From Solimonas sp. K1W22B-7 (lineage in GTDB: Bacteria > Pseudomonadota > Gammaproteobacteria > Nevskiales > Nevskiaceae), in assembly GCF_003428335.1 (NCBI RefSeq), contig NZ_CP031704.1, positions 3,100,001-3,164,000 of the forward strand: 64,000 bases of DNA. The letters are read 5' to 3'. The translations under genes were made by a program, and so were the position numbers. This document shows positions 14,961-42,057 of this stretch, piece by piece (within the stretch, counting starts at the first letter, position 1; every line of letters starts with the position of its first letter). The notes under the pieces were generated by a model. It was not told the origin of the DNA. It ran no database searches and saw only the letters and a program-made list of their open reading frames with translations.

Positions 14961-15818
14961 CTATTTCGCCCGCCTGACGGGCATCGGCGGCAGCAGGGTC
15001 TGGGGGTCGACGCGGCTGCGGAACCAGCCGATGCCCCAGTGCAGATGCGGCCCGGTGGCGCGGCCGGTCTTGCCGGACAGGGCCACGACCTCGCCCTGCC
15101 TCACCGCGTCGCCGACCCGGACCTTCAGCGCCGACAGGTGCACCATGATCGAAGAGACGCCATGGCCATGATCGATCATCAGCGTGCCGCCGGTGAAATA
15201 CAGGTCCGGCTCGGCCAGGCTGACCACGCCATCGGCCGGAGCATGGATCGGCGTACCCACCGGCACGGCGACGTCGATCCCGTAGTGCGGCTGCTTGGGA
15301 ATGCCGTTGAGGATGCGCTGGTTGCCGAAGGTCCCGGAGATGCGGCCGGTGGCGGCCCAGGCAAAGCGCTGGCGCCAGCCGTCCAGGTCGCTGTCCAGAT
15401 CGCGCGCGGCATTGAGCAGGGCCTGCTCGCGCTCGATGCGCGCCATCACCTCCGGCGGCGGCTCCACCTTGTCCGGCGGCAGTCCGTCGATGCGCTGGAT
15501 CTTCCAGGGGCGCGGGGCGACGGCGTAGCGGCGGCTGAGCGGCCGGGCATCACCCTGCCCCTGCCAGCGCAGTTCCACCTTGGCCGGTTCGTCGCGGTCC
15601 AGGCCGAAAACGAAAGCGCCCTGCGGGGAGACCCGCAGGGCGCTTTCGCCGAACCAGACGCGGGTGCCGGGTTCAGCCTGGCCGTGGACCAGGCTGCCCT
15701 GCTGCCAGGAGCCCTGAAGTTCGAAGGCGCCAGCGGGCATCGCAACCAGCAACAGCAAGGCAGTCCGCAAATGAACACAGATGAACGCAAATGAAGGGAA
15801 GCTTCTATTCGCGTTCAT
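14961..15818 (-). CDS. M23 family metallopeptidase (LytM domain), exported
   Basis: A 285-residue (longest start) peptidoglycan peptidase of the LytM/M23 type. The C-terminal domain has the zinc motifs HYGIDVAVP (His, Asp) and GPHLHWG (HxH) and an intact LIDHGHGVSS strand. An N-terminal beta domain of about 110 residues precedes it. The start is uncertain because the first 17 codons lie in a dispersed palindromic repeat. A TTG at 15770 would give a cleaner signal peptide, MRTALLLLVAMPAGA. No clear ribosome-binding site favours either. It probably cuts peptide cross-links in the periplasm. Confidence 0.85.
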   Translation of the reverse strand: MNANRSFPSFAFICVHLRTALLLLVAMPAGAFELQGSWQQGSLVHGQAEPGTRVWFGESALRVSPQGAFVFGLDRDEPAKVELRWQGQGDARPLSRRYAVAPRPWKIQRIDGLPPDKVEPPPEVMARIEREQALLNAARDLDSDLDGWRQRFAWAATGRISGTFGNQRILNGIPKQPHYGIDVAVPVGTPIHAPADGVVSLAEPDLYFTGGTLMIDHGHGVSSIMVHLSALKVRVGDAVRQGEVVALSGKTGRATGPHLHWGIGWFRSRVDPQTLLPPMPVRRAK

Positions 15819-15838
15819 TTGCGTTGATTTGCGGACTG
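15761..15838. repeat. Dispersed palindromic repeat, copy 1 (CAGTCCGCAAATGAAC type)
   Basis: Arms CAGTCCGCAAAT (15761-15772) and ATTTGCGGACTG (15827-15838) flank inner repeats of ATGAACGC and its complement. A second copy is at 39520-39585. This copy lies at the 3' end of thrS and overlaps the first codons of the M23 peptidase frame, and may act as terminator or processing site. Confidence 0.8.
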
Positions 15839-36309: not shown

Positions 36310-36927
36310 CTAGGGCGTCGCGACAGGATCCAGAGGCCCGGCACCCGAAACCAGCGCCGGCTGCAGCGTCCAGAGTTCACGGGCAAGCTGCGCGTAGGCC
36401 TCGCCGGCCAGCTGGCTCACGGCGGCGACGTAGCGGTCCGGCGAGTCGTCCGCGAGCGGGCGCTGGCCTTCCAGCGTAAGGGTGCGCAGCGGGCGGCCGT
36501 CGCGATCGTTGATCAGCACTTCCAGCGACAGCACCGCGCGGCGCTCGCCCTCGATCTGCATTTCCATCTGGCGGATCGTGGGGTGCAGCGAGACGTCGCC
36601 GCGCACCCGGTTGCCGGGGGTGTAGACCTCGGTGGCGCCGGCCGCCCGCAGCGCATCGATCAGCGCGCCATGCAGTTCCAGCGCCGGCGACTCGGCCCAG
36701 AAGTGGCGGTAGTACTGGCGCATCGCCGGGCCGCGCGCCCATAGCAGCGGGCGCTCGCCGTACACCCCTGGCGCGGTGAAAGGCATCACCACGACACGCG
36801 GGGCGAAGACGCCCAGCGCCTGTGGCGGCGAAGGCTGCAGACGGTAGTAGACCTCCTGCGGCGGGGTCGGCACGGACAGGCAACCGGCCAGCAGGGCTGC
36901 CAGGGCGAGCAGCAACAGGGTTCTCAT
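36310..36927 (-). CDS. ABC-type transport auxiliary lipoprotein (PqiC-like)
   Basis: A 205-residue lipoprotein with lipobox LALAALLAGC and the ABC_trans_aux pattern QEVYYRLQPSP, RVVVMPFTAPGVYGERPLLW and MRQYYRHFWAESPALELHGAL. The family includes PqiC and the last component of many MCE transporters, where it sits under the outer membrane and receives or gates lipid flow. Its start overlaps the MCE gene (ATGA), making it the final gene of the mlaEFD-like run. Confidence 0.85.
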   Translation of the reverse strand: MRTLLLLALAALLAGCLSVPTPPQEVYYRLQPSPPQALGVFAPRVVVMPFTAPGVYGERPLLWARGPAMRQYYRHFWAESPALELHGALIDALRAAGATEVYTPGNRVRGDVSLHPTIRQMEMQIEGERRAVLSLEVLINDRDGRPLRTLTLEGQRPLADDSPDRYVAAVSQLAGEAYAQLARELWTLQPALVSGAGPLDPVATP

Positions 36928-37868
36928 GGCTTCTTCTCCAGCTCGGACGGCGGGCCGTCTTCGCGCGGCGGTTCGGGCGCCCGCAGCAGCGTGCCGGGGC
37001 TGCGCCGGATCTGTCGGCTGAACTCCTGCAGGTTGCGTGTGCTGGTCTCGAGGTTCTGCGCGACGCCCTCGGAGCGCCGCGACATGCTCTCGATGGTCAG
37101 GCGCAGTTCGCGCAGCGCCACCAGCACATCGGGGGCCGCCTGCTCGAGCTGACGGCTGCCGTTGCGCAGGCTCAGCAGGGTCTGGTCGGCATGGTCGATC
37201 GTGCGGCCCAGGGCCTCGACGCGCTGCGGCGACAGCAGCCGGTCGGCGCGCGCGCTGACGCGCTCGAGGTGGCCGAGGATCGTCGGCACATCCCTGGAGG
37301 CGGCAACCATCACCTTGTTGCTGTTCTGCGCCAGCGGGCGGATGTCCTCCTGCAGGATCGTGCCCAGCAGCGTCACCTGGCGGTTGAGGTTCTGCAGCAG
37401 CGGCAGCAGGGCCTGCTCGGTCAGCTCGTCGATATTGCCGGTGACGCTGGCAACGCTGGACATCAGGCCGCCCATGCCGCCGGCGGTGATGGTGGCGCCC
37501 GGCTCCAGGGCCTTGGGGCTGCTGCCGGCGGAGATCTCGATGGTCTGCGGCGCCAGCACGCCGCTGGCGGTGGAGCGCGCGATGCTGTCGGAGGGAATCT
37601 TCCAGCCCTCGGTCACCGACATGCGCACACGGAAGCGCATCTGGCCCTGCTGCACGTAAGGCTCGACCTCTTCCACCTGCCCCACCGGGTAGCCCTCGAA
37701 CAGCACCTTGGAACCGAACTTGAGGCCGCTGACGTTGGCGTAGACCGTGTAGTAGGTGTCGGTGCTGCCGGTGCGCCCCGCCAGCACCGCCAGCGTCAGC
37801 ACCAGGCTGACCAGGCCCAGCAGCACGAAGCCGCCGACCATCGCCAGGTTCCACTTGCTGTTGATCAT
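36924..37868 (-). CDS. mlaD: MCE/MlaD-family lipid transport protein
   Basis: A 314-residue protein with one N-terminal membrane anchor (LAMVGGFVLLGLVSLVLTLAV), an MCE domain (about residues 37-115, with VYANVSGLKFGSKVLFEGYPVG) and a long helical C-terminal region (about 130-290). That tail could form a tube or coiled coil like PqiB/LetB-type proteins. It is longer than E. coli MlaD (183). It forms the periplasmic lipid conduit of the ABC transporter. It overlaps the ATPase gene upstream and lipoprotein gene downstream by four bases each. Confidence 0.88.
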   Translation of the reverse strand: MINSKWNLAMVGGFVLLGLVSLVLTLAVLAGRTGSTDTYYTVYANVSGLKFGSKVLFEGYPVGQVEEVEPYVQQGQMRFRVRMSVTEGWKIPSDSIARSTASGVLAPQTIEISAGSSPKALEPGATITAGGMGGLMSSVASVTGNIDELTEQALLPLLQNLNRQVTLLGTILQEDIRPLAQNSNKVMVAASRDVPTILGHLERVSARADRLLSPQRVEALGRTIDHADQTLLSLRNGSRQLEQAAPDVLVALRELRLTIESMSRRSEGVAQNLETSTRNLQEFSRQIRRSPGTLLRAPEPPREDGPPSELEKKP

Positions 37869-38674
37869 GCCGTCGCTCCGCTGCTCACCGGTCCGCCGGT
37901 GAGGCGCTTCAGGTATTCCTCGGGATTGAGTTCCAGCGGCTGGATACGGCGGTTGAGCAGCGCCTGCACGCGCTCGCTGCCGCTGGCCTTGACCTCGGCC
38001 ACGGTACCGCAGACCAGCATGTCGCCGTGATCCAGAACGGCGATGCGGTCGGCGATCTTGAAGGCGCTTTCCAGTTCGTGCGTCACCACCACCAGGCTCA
38101 TGCCGGTGGCGTCGCGCAGTTTCAGGATCAGTTCGTCCAGCGAGGCCGCCACCACCGGGTCGAGGCCGGCGCTGGGTTCGTCGAGGAACAGCAGGCGCGG
38201 ATCCATGATGATGGCGCGCGCCATCGCGGCACGCTTGATCATGCCGCCGGACAGTTGCGCCGGCATCAACTGCTCGCAGCCGGCCAGGTTCACGATGTCG
38301 AGCTTGAGCCGCATCATGATCTGCATGGTCGACAGGTCCAGGCGCGTGTGCTCGCGCAGCGGCAGCATGACGTTGTCGCCCACCGTCATGGAACTGAACA
38401 GCGCGCCGCCCTGGAAGGCCACGCCCATCTTGCGGCGCAGCTCCACCAGTCGCTGCGGGCCGATGGTGTTGATGTCCTCGCCGAGCAGGCGGATGACGCC
38501 GGAGTGCGGCTGCTGCAGGCCCAGCAGGTGGCGCAGCAGCGTGCTCTTGCCGGAACCCGAGCCCCCCATGATCACCATGATCTCGCCGGCCTGCACTTCC
38601 AGGTCGATACCCTTGATCACGGTGCGCTCGCCGTAGCGTGCCACCAGCTTCTCCACCTCGACGATGGCGGTCAT
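37865..38674 (-). CDS. mlaF: MlaF-family ABC transporter ATPase
   Basis: A 269-residue ATPase driving the MCE lipid transporter. It shows Walker A GGSGSGKST, Q-loop VAFQGGALFSSMTVGDNVMLPL (MlaF type), signature LSGGMIKRAAMARAI and Walker B LLFLDEPSAGLDP. The switch His is in VVTHEL. Its C-terminus (RRIQPLELNPEEYLKRL) is typical. In E. coli MlaF is bound by the STAS protein MlaB; a STAS protein is encoded just upstream in this run. Overlaps mlaD by four bases. Confidence 0.9.
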   Translation of the reverse strand: MTAIVEVEKLVARYGERTVIKGIDLEVQAGEIMVIMGGSGSGKSTLLRHLLGLQQPHSGVIRLLGEDINTIGPQRLVELRRKMGVAFQGGALFSSMTVGDNVMLPLREHTRLDLSTMQIMMRLKLDIVNLAGCEQLMPAQLSGGMIKRAAMARAIIMDPRLLFLDEPSAGLDPVVAASLDELILKLRDATGMSLVVVTHELESAFKIADRIAVLDHGDMLVCGTVAEVKASGSERVQALLNRRIQPLELNPEEYLKRLTGGPVSSGATA

Positions 38675-38705
38675 CGCGTCACCAGGAAGGTGTTGGCGTT
38701 GATTG

Positions 38706-38740
38706 TTTTCACTTTTATCTTGTGACCAGGAAAGTGAAAA
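38706..38740. repeat. Perfect 10-bp inverted repeat at the end of mlaE
   Basis: TTTTCACTTT (38706-38715) and AAAGTGAAAA (38731-38740) flank 15 bases that include the mlaE stop codon. AT-rich hairpin in GC-rich surroundings. See the mlaE entry for the odd 3' end. Confidence 0.6.
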
Positions 38741-39503
38741 TCATGTCCGTGACAACGATGGCGGAGATCGCGTGCACCACCGAGCGCGTGGTCATGCGGC
38801 CGACGCCCTCGGCACCGCCGCTGACCCCCAGGCCGTTGACCACGCCCACCAGGGTGATGAGCACGCCGAACAGCGCGCTCTTGCCGATGCCGTGCAGGAT
38901 GTCGTCGTTGGACAGGAACTGGCGCAACTCGCCGAGGTAGGCGGTGAACGACAGGCCCAGTTCCAGCGACACGTAGATGCCGGCGCCGAGCAGGGCCACC
39001 ATGTCGGCGTACCAGGTCAGCAGCGGCACCATCAGCAGCATCGCCACCAGCGCCGGCGCCACCAGGTAGCGCACCGGGTTGATGCCGATCACCGTGAGCG
39101 CGCTGATCTCCTCGTTGATCTTCATGGTGCCCAGGCGCGCGGCCAGGGCCGAGCCGGAGCGGCCGGCGACCAGGATGCCGGTGATCAGCGGCGCGAACTC
39201 GCGCGTCACCGACAGCGCGATGCCGACGGTGACCTGGCTTTCGGCGCCGAAGATGCTGAGCGTATGGATGCCCTGGATCGCCACCATGGCGCCGATGGCG
39301 AAGCTCAGCACGGTGACGATGGGGATGGCGCGCAGGCCGATGTCGACGCATTGCAGCAGTACCGCGGACATGCGCACCGGCTGGCGCCGCCGCGTGCCGG
39401 TGAGCAGCCAGCCGACGCTTTCCAGGAACAGCACGGCCGCCAACCCCAGCTCGGTGATGCCGGCCAGCGTGTTGCGTCCGATCGTCTCCGCTGCATTGCG
39501 CAT
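38715..39503 (-). CDS. mlaE: MlaE-family lipid ABC transporter permease
   Basis: A 262-residue permease with five or six membrane helices and the conserved MlaE core: TREFAPLITGILVAGRSGSALAARLGTM and INEEISALTVIGINPVRYLV. It forms the inner-membrane part of the MCE lipid transporter. The 3' end is unusual: it ends FTFLVTR-stop, while the next 43 bases before mlaF encode, in another frame, NTFLVTR ending in TGA overlapping the mlaF ATG. This suggests a small duplication or frameshift that shortened the original coupling. Upstream lies a palindromic repeat and the STAS gene. Confidence 0.88.
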   Translation of the reverse strand: MRNAAETIGRNTLAGITELGLAAVLFLESVGWLLTGTRRRQPVRMSAVLLQCVDIGLRAIPIVTVLSFAIGAMVAIQGIHTLSIFGAESQVTVGIALSVTREFAPLITGILVAGRSGSALAARLGTMKINEEISALTVIGINPVRYLVAPALVAMLLMVPLLTWYADMVALLGAGIYVSLELGLSFTAYLGELRQFLSNDDILHGIGKSALFGVLITLVGVVNGLGVSGGAEGVGRMTTRSVVHAISAIVVTDMIFTFLVTR

Positions 39504-39519
39504 CAGATTCCCAGGCTTT

Positions 39520-39585
39520 CAGTCCGCAAATGAACGCAAATGAACGCGAATACAAGCTCTAGTATTTGCGTTCATTTGCGGACTG
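39520..39585. repeat. Dispersed palindromic repeat, copy 2 (CAGTCCGCAAATGAAC type)
   Basis: Perfect 22-bp arms at 39520-39541 and 39564-39585 with a 22-base loop. The arm sequence matches the outer part of the copy at 15761-15838. It sits between the STAS gene and mlaE and could reduce read-through between the signalling and transport genes. Confidence 0.88.
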
Positions 39586-39592
39586 CATAGCG

Positions 39593-39892
39593 TTAAAGGA
39601 TACGGAAGACCTTGTCCAGCCTGGCCAGCGCCAGCACCTTCTGCACCGCCCCGCCGACGCGCACCAGCGAAAACTCGTGCCCGGCGGTCTTGGCCCTCTG
39701 GAAGGCTTCGACCAGGCTGGCAATGCCGGAGGAGTCCATGTAGCTCACCCCGCCCATGTCCACCACCACCGGCAGGCCCTTGTCGACCGCCTTCAGCAGC
39801 GTCTGGCGCGCCAGCGGCGAGGTCTCCAGGTCGATGTCGCCGGTGAGGAACACCGTGGCGGCGCCACCGTCCTCGCTGATGCGGAAAGTCAT
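39593..39892 (-). CDS. STAS-domain protein (anti-anti-sigma factor/MlaB-like)
   Basis: A 99-residue single STAS domain. FLTGDIDLETSPLARQTL and VVVDMGGVSYMDSSGIASLVEAFQ are typical; Ser54 or Ser55 is the likely phosphorylation site as in SpoIIAA. It overlaps the GAF-PP2C-kinase gene (ATGA), so it is probably that protein's substrate: the kinase part phosphorylates it and the PP2C part dephosphorylates it. Being also next to mlaEFD, it may instead or also play the MlaB part and bind MlaF. The two readings are not exclusive; both are inference. Confidence 0.85.
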   Translation of the reverse strand: MTFRISEDGGAATVFLTGDIDLETSPLARQTLLKAVDKGLPVVVDMGGVSYMDSSGIASLVEAFQRAKTAGHEFSLVRVGGAVQKVLALARLDKVFRIL

Positions 39893-41610
39893 TCCTGCTC
39901 CCCCTTGGTCTTTGCAGCCAGGCGCTTGGCCAGCGCCAGGCGGTTGCCGGCGCCGCGCGGCGGGCGCAGGTATTTCATGCTGTCGGTCAGCGCCGACATG
40001 AAGAAGGTCCCCAGCCCGCCGGGCCGTACCTCGTCCAGCGGCCGGCCCTTGCACTCATCCTGTTTCACCGGCGGGGCGAAGTCCACCAGTTCCACCGTCA
40101 GGCGGTCGCCGCCGCGGCGCACGGTCAGGTCGATACGGCCGTCCTCGCGGTCGCGGTAGCCGTGGCGGATGATGTTCTGGCAGGCCTCGTCCACCGCCAG
40201 CACCAGTTCCTGCGCCGCCTCGGCGGCCATGCCGGCCTTGCCGGCGATATCGGCCACCAGGTGCCGGATGACCTTGAGCTGGGCGGCCTCCGCGGCAAAG
40301 GACTGGTGCAGCAGCAGGTCGCGCCGCGCGCGCCGCGGCGCCCTGCCCTCCACCACCAGCAGGGTGATGTCGTCGCGCAGGTCGGCGCCGTCCGGCGCCA
40401 GCGAATTGGCCAGGGCGTGGACGCGCTCGGCCAGCGGCAGGCCGGCGTAGTCCGCGATCAGGGCCTGGATGCCCTCGGCACCGCGCATGGCGCCGTCGGC
40501 GTCGCGGCTCTCGGTGCAACCGTCGGTGTAGAGGTACAGGCTGCCGCCGTCGAGGCGCAGCGTGGTCTCGGGGTAGACGCCGCCCTCGGGCGCGACGATG
40601 CCCAGCGGCGGCTCCTCCGCGGGGAACGAGTGGCAGCGGCCGTTGCGGTCGCGCCAGACCGGCGGCTCGTGGCCGGCATTGGCGAAGCGCACGGTATGGG
40701 TCCGCGGATCGTAGATGCCCACCACCATGGTCACGAACATGCCCTGCGCCATGGTCTCCATCAGCTCGGCACCGATGCGCGCCAGCAGCTTGCCGGGCTT
40801 GCGCATCTCCTTGGCCGAACTGCGGAACAGCGTCGCCGCCTTGACCGCCACCAGGGCGGCGTTCATGCCCTTGCCGGAGACGTCGGCCAGGGCGAAGGCG
40901 ATGCTGCCGCCGACCAGGGGCAGCACATCGTAGAAGTCGCCGGAGACGCCGCGCGCCGGCAGGTTGACGCCGCAGACCCATTCGCTGGCGGCGGTATCCC
41001 TGGGCAGCAGCGCCCGCTGCACGCTGGCCGCCAACTCCAGCTCGCGCCGGGTGCGCGCCTGCTCCACCTGCGCCTGCATCAGGCGGCCGTTGACCAGGGC
41101 CAGGGCGGCGGCATTGGCCAGCGTGGCCAGGGCCTCGCAGTCGCGTTCGTTGAACAGGTTGTCGCAATCGCGGCGGTTGATCACCTCCACCGCGCCCAGG
41201 CGCTGGCCCTTGACGCTGAGCGGGGCGCAGAGGATCGAGCGCACCTGGTAGTTCATCTGCGCCGAGGGCGGCACGAAGTCGGGGTCCTTGCGGGTGTCGG
41301 CGACCAGCTGCGGCTCGTCGAGCTGCACCGCGCGGCCGACGATGCCGCTGCCCAGCGGCAGGGACAGGCCGGTGATGTCGCTGGGGCCGACGCAGGCCTG
41401 GCAGACCAGCCGCGCCCTGGGATCGCCTTCAACACCCTCCAGCAGGAACAGCGAGGCCGACTCGGCGTTCATCACCTCGGCGATCCGGGACAGCGCCCGC
41501 CGCACCATCGACACTTCGATGTCGAGGCTGGCGAAATCCTCCAGCAGCTCGGCGAACAGCGAGAGGTAGTCAGGCCCGGTCTGCGCCCCGGCCGGCGCCT
41601 CGGGCGTCAT
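39889..41610 (-). CDS. GAF-PP2C phosphatase-HATPase kinase fusion (RsbU/SpoIIE plus RsbW-like)
   Basis: A 573-residue signalling protein. An N-terminal GAF domain (about 30-180) includes LPLGSGIVGRAV and LCAPLSVKGQRLGAVEVINR. A PP2C/SpoIIE phosphatase (about 195-425) shows the metal Asp in SGDFYDVLP and ADVSGKGMNAALVA. A C-terminal GHKL ATPase/kinase (about 435-565) has the N-box ELVLAVDEACQNIIRHGY and GGLGTFFM. It thus holds sensor, Ser/Thr phosphatase and anti-sigma-type kinase in one chain. No transmembrane segment. The STAS gene overlaps its end. It would set the phosphorylation state of that STAS protein. Confidence 0.9.
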   Translation of the reverse strand: MTPEAPAGAQTGPDYLSLFAELLEDFASLDIEVSMVRRALSRIAEVMNAESASLFLLEGVEGDPRARLVCQACVGPSDITGLSLPLGSGIVGRAVQLDEPQLVADTRKDPDFVPPSAQMNYQVRSILCAPLSVKGQRLGAVEVINRRDCDNLFNERDCEALATLANAAALALVNGRLMQAQVEQARTRRELELAASVQRALLPRDTAASEWVCGVNLPARGVSGDFYDVLPLVGGSIAFALADVSGKGMNAALVAVKAATLFRSSAKEMRKPGKLLARIGAELMETMAQGMFVTMVVGIYDPRTHTVRFANAGHEPPVWRDRNGRCHSFPAEEPPLGIVAPEGGVYPETTLRLDGGSLYLYTDGCTESRDADGAMRGAEGIQALIADYAGLPLAERVHALANSLAPDGADLRDDITLLVVEGRAPRRARRDLLLHQSFAAEAAQLKVIRHLVADIAGKAGMAAEAAQELVLAVDEACQNIIRHGYRDREDGRIDLTVRRGGDRLTVELVDFAPPVKQDECKGRPLDEVRPGGLGTFFMSALTDSMKYLRPPRGAGNRLALAKRLAAKTKGEQE

Positions 41611-41613
41611 CCC

Positions 41614-42057
41614 CTATTCCTTGCCGGGCGCTTCCGGCGCGGCGTCCGGATCGGCCGGGATCTCTGCATCTGCCTTGGGCTTGGCCTTGATCTCGTCGGG
41701 GTCCACCAGCTTGTTGACCTTCAGCTCCGGCGGCAGCTGCCACTCGCCCAGGTCGTGCCCGGCGGCGCGCATCTTCTTGGCCATCTTGTACAGCTGGCGG
41801 TCGTTGCCCTTGGTGCCGGTGAAGCTGCCCGGTCGCGTCACCATGACCTGGAACTGCTCCAGGATGCGGCCACGGTCGGACACGACGTTGCCGCTGCTGA
41901 CCCGGGACTGGGCCCATTTCTGGGCGGTGATGAACTCGTCCATGGCGACGATCATGGCGCCGCCACCGTCGATCACGATCATGGCGATCTCGCCCTGCTT
42001 GGCGATGCGGGCGCGCTGGGCGAAGGCTTCGAACAGGGTTTTCTGCTTGGTGGACAT
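41614..42057 (-). CDS. Hypothetical cytosolic protein upstream of the partner-switch gene
   Basis: A 147-residue protein that I do not recognise. The N-terminal MSTKQKTLFEAFAQRARIAKQGEIAMIVIDG is followed by an acidic Pro/Ala/Asp-rich tail (DADAAPEAP-like). No signal peptide or membrane helix. The ATG at 42057 is chosen for the AGGAA ribosome-binding site upstream; a longer reading to 42126 lacks one. It ends 3 bases before the GAF-PP2C-kinase start and is therefore probably the first gene of that operon. Confidence 0.65.
   Translation of the reverse strand: MSTKQKTLFEAFAQRARIAKQGEIAMIVIDGGGAMIVAMDEFITAQKWAQSRVSSGNVVSDRGRILEQFQVMVTRPGSFTGTKGNDRQLYKMAKKMRAAGHDLGEWQLPPELKVNKLVDPDEIKAKPKADAEIPADPDAAPEAPGKE

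Follow-up and report, generated by a model that had tools for sequence, protein, structure and literature searches.

Partner switching is known mainly as a mechanism that controls sigma factors, which are the usual targets of such modules and are usually encoded alongside them. In the RsbU/RsbW/RsbV and SpoIIE/SpoIIAB/SpoIIAA systems, a PP2C phosphatase and a HATPase_c_2 kinase share a STAS substrate carrying a DSSG motif. RsbW-type kinases bind their STAS protein tightly in known systems, and SpoIIAA-type proteins lose their partners upon phosphorylation. A sigma-independent STAS output has been described in Vibrio fischeri, where SypE holds kinase and PP2C domains in one protein and acts on a single STAS protein, SypA, of which the unphosphorylated form is the active output (PMC8256260).

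A STAS protein is also part of the Escherichia coli lipid transporter MlaFEDB, in which MlaB is needed for transporter assembly (PMC5016091; PMC7367683). Helix 2 of MlaB is the centre of its contact with MlaF, and the C-terminal tail of MlaF (Tyr261-Leu265) inserts at the interface between both proteins. MlaB Thr52 lies at the same interface: the T52E substitution reduces MlaF binding (PMC7367683), and with T52A the complex still assembles yet ATPase activity is abolished (PMC5016091), so that this residue does more than dock. Phosphorylation of MlaB was proposed by Thong et al. 2016 (PMC5016091) and Kolich et al. 2020 (PMC7367683) without a named kinase or phosphatase. STAS domains near or fused to DUF140/MlaE were already noted in 2007 (PMC1810536). 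Our literature search, which covered few subscription journals and preprints and is no proof of absence, found no paper joining partner switching to an MCE transporter.

Here we describe such a combination in the window, the whole 64,000-nucleotide stretch of Solimonas sp. K1W22B-7 DNA that was analysed, and in about 33 sampled families in which the switching enzymes are encoded beside the STAS gene. We propose, with a probability of roughly 0.7, that the STAS protein is a phospho-switchable MlaB gating the MCE transporter, phosphorylation of Ser54 turning transport off and the PP2C phosphatase turning it on again. If this holds, an ABC transporter ATPase would be under partner-switching control, and dozens of families would encode, beside the pump itself, a candidate for the long-suspected on/off switch of outer-membrane lipid transport. 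With both enzymes encoded beside the STAS gene, the idea of MlaB phosphorylation is directly testable with three co-purified proteins.

Methods

Open reading frames of the window were assigned to families with Pfam and NCBIfam. The sample consisted of 369 genomes across the class Gammaproteobacteria, and the MlaE search and the STAS profile search were run on this same set. A STAS hit was called strong at E <= 1e-20 in the profile search, and the flanking genes were read with local HMMs. The locus of G268, where a contig end cuts the context, was left out, which gave 58 readable loci.

Results and discussion

Organisation of the operon

Seven collinear genes run on the - strand from 42057 to 36310 (Table 1), each of them at the place where an earlier note on this DNA had put it. 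Three of the domains lie in a single 573-aa protein (Pfam E-values: SpoIIE 3e-43, HATPase_c_2 2e-26, GAF 1e-16), and the other assigned proteins matched STAS (1e-18), MlaE (6e-69), ABC_tran (4e-30), MlaD (2e-10) and ABC_trans_aux (1e-13), which places the permease, the ATPase and the MCE protein of an Mla-type transporter side by side. The start of the STAS gene overlaps the stop of the kinase gene by 4 nt (ATGA), bearing out the overlap that had been claimed, and overlaps are also found at mlaF/mlaD and mlaD/lipoprotein. The STAS gene had further been placed before mlaE; mlaE is indeed the next gene, and the detail that had been missed is a gap of 90 bp, the sole sizeable one in the run, which is occupied by a 78-bp palindromic repeat. 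Two of the other Solimonas genomes have a gap of only about 30 bp here and the third one of about 80 bp, and the whole seven-gene order is kept in 4/4 Solimonas genomes. A consensus scan, uninformative for this GC-rich genome, detected no sigma-70-type promoter within the run or ahead of it. The run is best explained as one operon, encoding an MCE lipid ABC transporter with built-in partner-switching control; the earlier description of the module and the transporter as fused is valid for their gene order and for nothing beyond it.

Table 1. Features of the switch and transporter operon, in window coordinates
Feature	Position	Strand	Basis
P0001, 147 aa, first gene of the run	41614..42057	-	ORF; no Pfam/NCBIfam family
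GAF - SpoIIE/PP2C phosphatase - RsbW-type HATPase_c_2 kinase, 573 aa	39889..41610	-	Pfam
STAS switch protein, 99 aa, predicted phosphosite Ser54 (D53-S54-S55-G56)	39593..39892	-	Pfam STAS
Palindromic repeat (REP/MITE-like) between STAS and mlaE	39515..39592	.	BLAST matches in own genome, folding
MlaE-type permease, 262 aa, without fused STAS	38715..39503	-	PF02405
MlaF-type ATPase, 269 aa, C-terminal tail ...EEYLKRLT (Tyr254)	37865..38674	-	PF00005
MlaD / MCE protein, 314 aa	36924..37868	-	PF02470
ABC-type transport auxiliary lipoprotein	36310..36927	-	PF03886

The palindromic repeat has a predicted fold of -45.4 kcal/mol (z -6.5) and 83 BLAST matches in its own genome, many of which are both strands of one site. 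Its length is about 60-80 bp, and a further copy was seen at window positions 15761-15838. Homologues of P0001, which received no family assignment from Pfam or NCBIfam, were found only in Solimonas and in G031, always just ahead of the switch genes or of the STAS gene. In G031 the orthologue precedes STAS-mlaE, and the kinase and phosphatase are missing there. An AlphaFold model of P0001 was discarded as too poor for use (pLDDT 49).

The operon shares with E. coli MlaFEDB the homologues of MlaE, MlaF and MlaD, a small STAS protein with Ser54 corresponding to Thr52, helix 2 of that protein and the MlaF tail. It differs in that the STAS gene precedes mlaE and has its own kinase and phosphatase, in its long MlaD and added lipoprotein, and in the absence of mlaA and mlaC from the operon. 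The phosphatase, kinase and DSSG substrate are those of the Rsb and SpoII systems, but no sigma gene lies nearby and the linked candidate target is the ATPase of an ABC transporter. Joining kinase and PP2C in one protein opposite a single STAS protein recalls SypE/SypA, although the Syp locus makes polysaccharide and the present one encodes a lipid transporter. Operons with a STAS-MlaE fusion, which occur in other Nevskiales, likewise tie STAS to an MCE transporter; unlike the window operon, they hold STAS within the permease, have no noted kinase or phosphatase and lack the MlaF tail motif. A third type of MCE operon was observed in related Nevskiales (L057, L059, L062, L064, L068, L075); its MlaE measures about 370-390 aa, and the additional N-terminal stretch resembles a divergent STAS domain.

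Linkage of the switch to mla genes across families

A strong STAS was present in 59/369 sampled genomes and an MlaE of the window type in 46/369. The neighbour survey, which had been set beforehand as a refuting test, found the association in place: mlaE or mlaF is the next gene 3' of STAS in 53/58 readable genomes from 33 families, a rate that is partly circular given that the profile was seeded from linked copies, which does not affect the conservation across families. Window-type mlaE accounts for 43 of these next genes, canonical-type mlaE for 4 and mlaF for 6; neither gene follows in G126, G202, G266, G395 and G424. Directly 5' of STAS, all 53 linked genomes carry an RsbW-type kinase gene or domain, and nearly all have PP2C on the same strand, the exceptions being G247 and G366 (not found beside the locus), G296 and G176 (divergent) and G089 (cut by a contig end). 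STAS was found in 44/46 genomes with window-type MlaE vs 15/323 without (Fisher p 1.6e-41, uncorrected for kinship). Outside the sample, the full arrangement recurs in G058, in the same order, and in G455, from the same phylum and another class, and G574 shows kinase-STAS-mlaEFD-lipoprotein up to a contig end. With all four Solimonas genomes and dozens of other families, the association of STAS with mla genes is far beyond chance.

The active sites are kept as well. The kinases keep the Glu and Asn of the N box, the Asp of G1 and the GGLG of G2 in 68/68 cases, and the metal-binding Asp residues of PP2C are invariant in 62/62 phosphatases. The G1 box of the module has the form DxA instead of DxG.

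Classical partner switching has to be weighed here, in which the kinase would be an anti-sigma factor, the STAS protein would do no more than release a sigma factor whose gene lies elsewhere, and the mla genes would be tied in by co-transcription alone. The best NCBIfam matches, RsbW for the kinase and the anti-sigma antagonist superfamily for STAS, speak for it. So does the sister genus g6, in which three genomes have both module and transporter at separate places and an ECF sigma gene follows the unlinked module at about 2 kb downstream in 4/4 loci (L036, L037, L038, L039); the module may have a second or different output there. At the mla-linked loci, on the other hand, no sigma factor target is encoded alongside: searches with two query types found no sigma gene in their flanks, and none is present among the genes scanned around the window operon (33.2-48.4 kb), in line with the absence of a nearby sigma factor stated in the earlier note. 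The retention of the mlaE/mlaF gene order across 33 families also argues against classical switching, as do the MlaB-like helix 2 of STAS and its staying with MlaF where MlaE is lost or swapped, both treated below, and we consider this explanation unlikely. In L037 a VWA/YfbK-type gene lies between the module and the ECF sigma gene.

A proposed MlaB-like role for the STAS protein

The D-S-S-G motif is present in 69/69 module relatives; in an alignment with E. coli MlaB, its serine in the window protein, Ser54, falls on Thr52. The STAS of G031, without adjacent kinase and phosphatase, reads H-T-A-G at this position. A phosphosite of Ser instead of Thr was considered as a sign of a linked kinase and rejected, because Ser also occurs in the canonical MlaB of this family, which has no kinase linked to it; Ser alone is not diagnostic. 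Helix 2 reads GxA(S)LVE and is MlaB-like, with Ala and Glu conserved in 69/69 each (12/14 each in MlaB); five STAS proteins of other contexts have no Glu in helix 2 and mostly Gly or Ser in place of Ala.

By overall sequence the STAS protein is nearer to anti-sigma antagonists than to MlaB, and it scores 22.9 bits against NCBIfam mlaB_1 (NF033618), of which the cut-off is 90. It therefore falls outside that family, and our claim is that it may work like MlaB, not that it should be filed as MlaB. Such a role is supported, at the level of sequence, by an MlaB-type contact helix and by an MlaF tail of the kind that reaches MlaB, and further by its being the sole STAS in inspected operons with no mlaB after mlaC and by its travelling together with MlaF.

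MlaF as the probable partner

The C-terminal tail of the window MlaF aligns with Tyr261-Leu265 of E. coli MlaF, and its Tyr is conserved in 47/47, 6/6 and 4/4 sequences of the STAS-linked types. Among operons without an adjacent STAS, 4/7 have Phe at this position.

In a second operon type the module is followed by mlaF-mlaE-mlaD-mlaA-mlaC or by mlaE-mlaD-mlaA-mlaC, and no STAS gene (no mlaB) comes after mlaC in the inspected operons L194, L196, L198, L206 and L207. The MlaF of this type is 64-66% identical to the window type vs 39-40% to canonical MlaF, and for its MlaE the corresponding identities are 32% and 41-42%. The window MlaE falls in a clade separate from canonical MlaE, and the MlaF and MlaE trees agree with the identity pattern; AU tests of these groupings were not significant, the constraint being not quite the right question, and plain identities were used instead. 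With a window-type MlaF, an E. coli-like MlaE and no mlaB after mlaC in the inspected operons, it follows that STAS and MlaF travel together. Moreover, STAS is followed by mlaF without mlaE in G106, G253 and G387, and of four genomes that were tested among those with an unlinked module, three have a window-type MlaF elsewhere (G395 has none). The partner of STAS is thus probably MlaF.

The STAS, kinase/phosphatase and window-type MlaF could even constitute a phospho-gated cassette, exchangeable and able to energise different MCE permeases, a suggestion that we make tentatively. In G182 and G367, one cassette is encoded with two permease and MCE sets, one of the lipoprotein type and one of the canonical MlaE/MlaD type; should the cassette exist, one phosphorylation event could switch both lipid pathways of these genomes jointly.

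Paired operons were observed in L131 (6697-11536) and L137 (8814-13774), in which mlaE-mlaF-mlaD-lipoprotein is followed by a second, canonical-type mlaE-mlaD, accompanied in L137 by mlaA-mlaC. No second mlaF was seen between the paired operons, and a separate canonical-like MlaF is found elsewhere in both genomes.

A proposed phospho-switch

Given the order of the genes, their domains and catalytic residues, the invariant Ser, the contact helix, the tail of MlaF and the joint inheritance of STAS and MlaF, the switch may operate as follows. Unphosphorylated STAS would dock on MlaF and maintain an assembled, active ATPase. Phosphorylation of Ser54, in the middle of the docking face, by the RsbW-type kinase would make STAS leave MlaF, and transport would stop. 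The PP2C phosphatase, steered by GAF (HDOD or receiver in relatives), would remove the phosphate and transport would restart. The binding of STAS to MlaF, the effect of phosphorylation on it and the assignment of the phosphorylated form as off are inferred from E. coli MlaFEDB.

The polarity on MlaF might also be another one, with phosphorylated STAS as the activator or with the kinase titrating STAS irrespective of phosphorylation. The loss of partners by phosphorylated SpoIIAA-type proteins speaks against this explanation. The MlaB mutants point in two directions, as T52A binds yet abolishes ATPase activity (PMC5016091), which would suit another polarity, and T52E reduces MlaF binding (PMC7367683), which would not; we regard a different polarity as very improbable.

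The signal could, finally, run in reverse: STAS would be a constitutive subunit resembling MlaB, and when a transporter at work or stalled released it, the kinase and phosphatase would report the state of the envelope to another target. The same genomics fits, the tight binding of STAS by RsbW-type kinases is in favour of it, and there are loci lacking mla at which the module neighbours both an FHA gene and another PP2C gene (L195; L204 and L205 are similar). A reverse signal needs an additional downstream target, however, and a sensor-bearing phosphatase fits an input better than an output. The PP2C protein of the window has a GAF sensor domain; among sampled relatives, eight carry HDOD and one a receiver, the kind of variety to be expected where species exchange an input. 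We give the reverse signal only a small chance and retain gating of MlaF by STAS phosphorylation as the preferred explanation, in support of the earlier note, which had suggested that phosphorylated STAS might gate lipid transport.

Modules and transporters found apart

Two genomes, G149 and G383, have the transporter without the module, directly behind DUF1841. Next to a comparable nth neighbourhood in G202, G395 and G424 it is the module that comes next, with no mla genes. The simplest reading is that of one ancestral block that lost either half. Several genera have an nth - DUF1841 neighbourhood on the 5' side of either the module or mlaE (L118, L122, L195, L204, L205). The Solimonas genome itself carries a second partner-switching kit (L040, G000:C1:4600000-4619000), with a STAS gene near 4606100, a PP2C gene near 4607250 and an RsbW-like kinase at 4612483.
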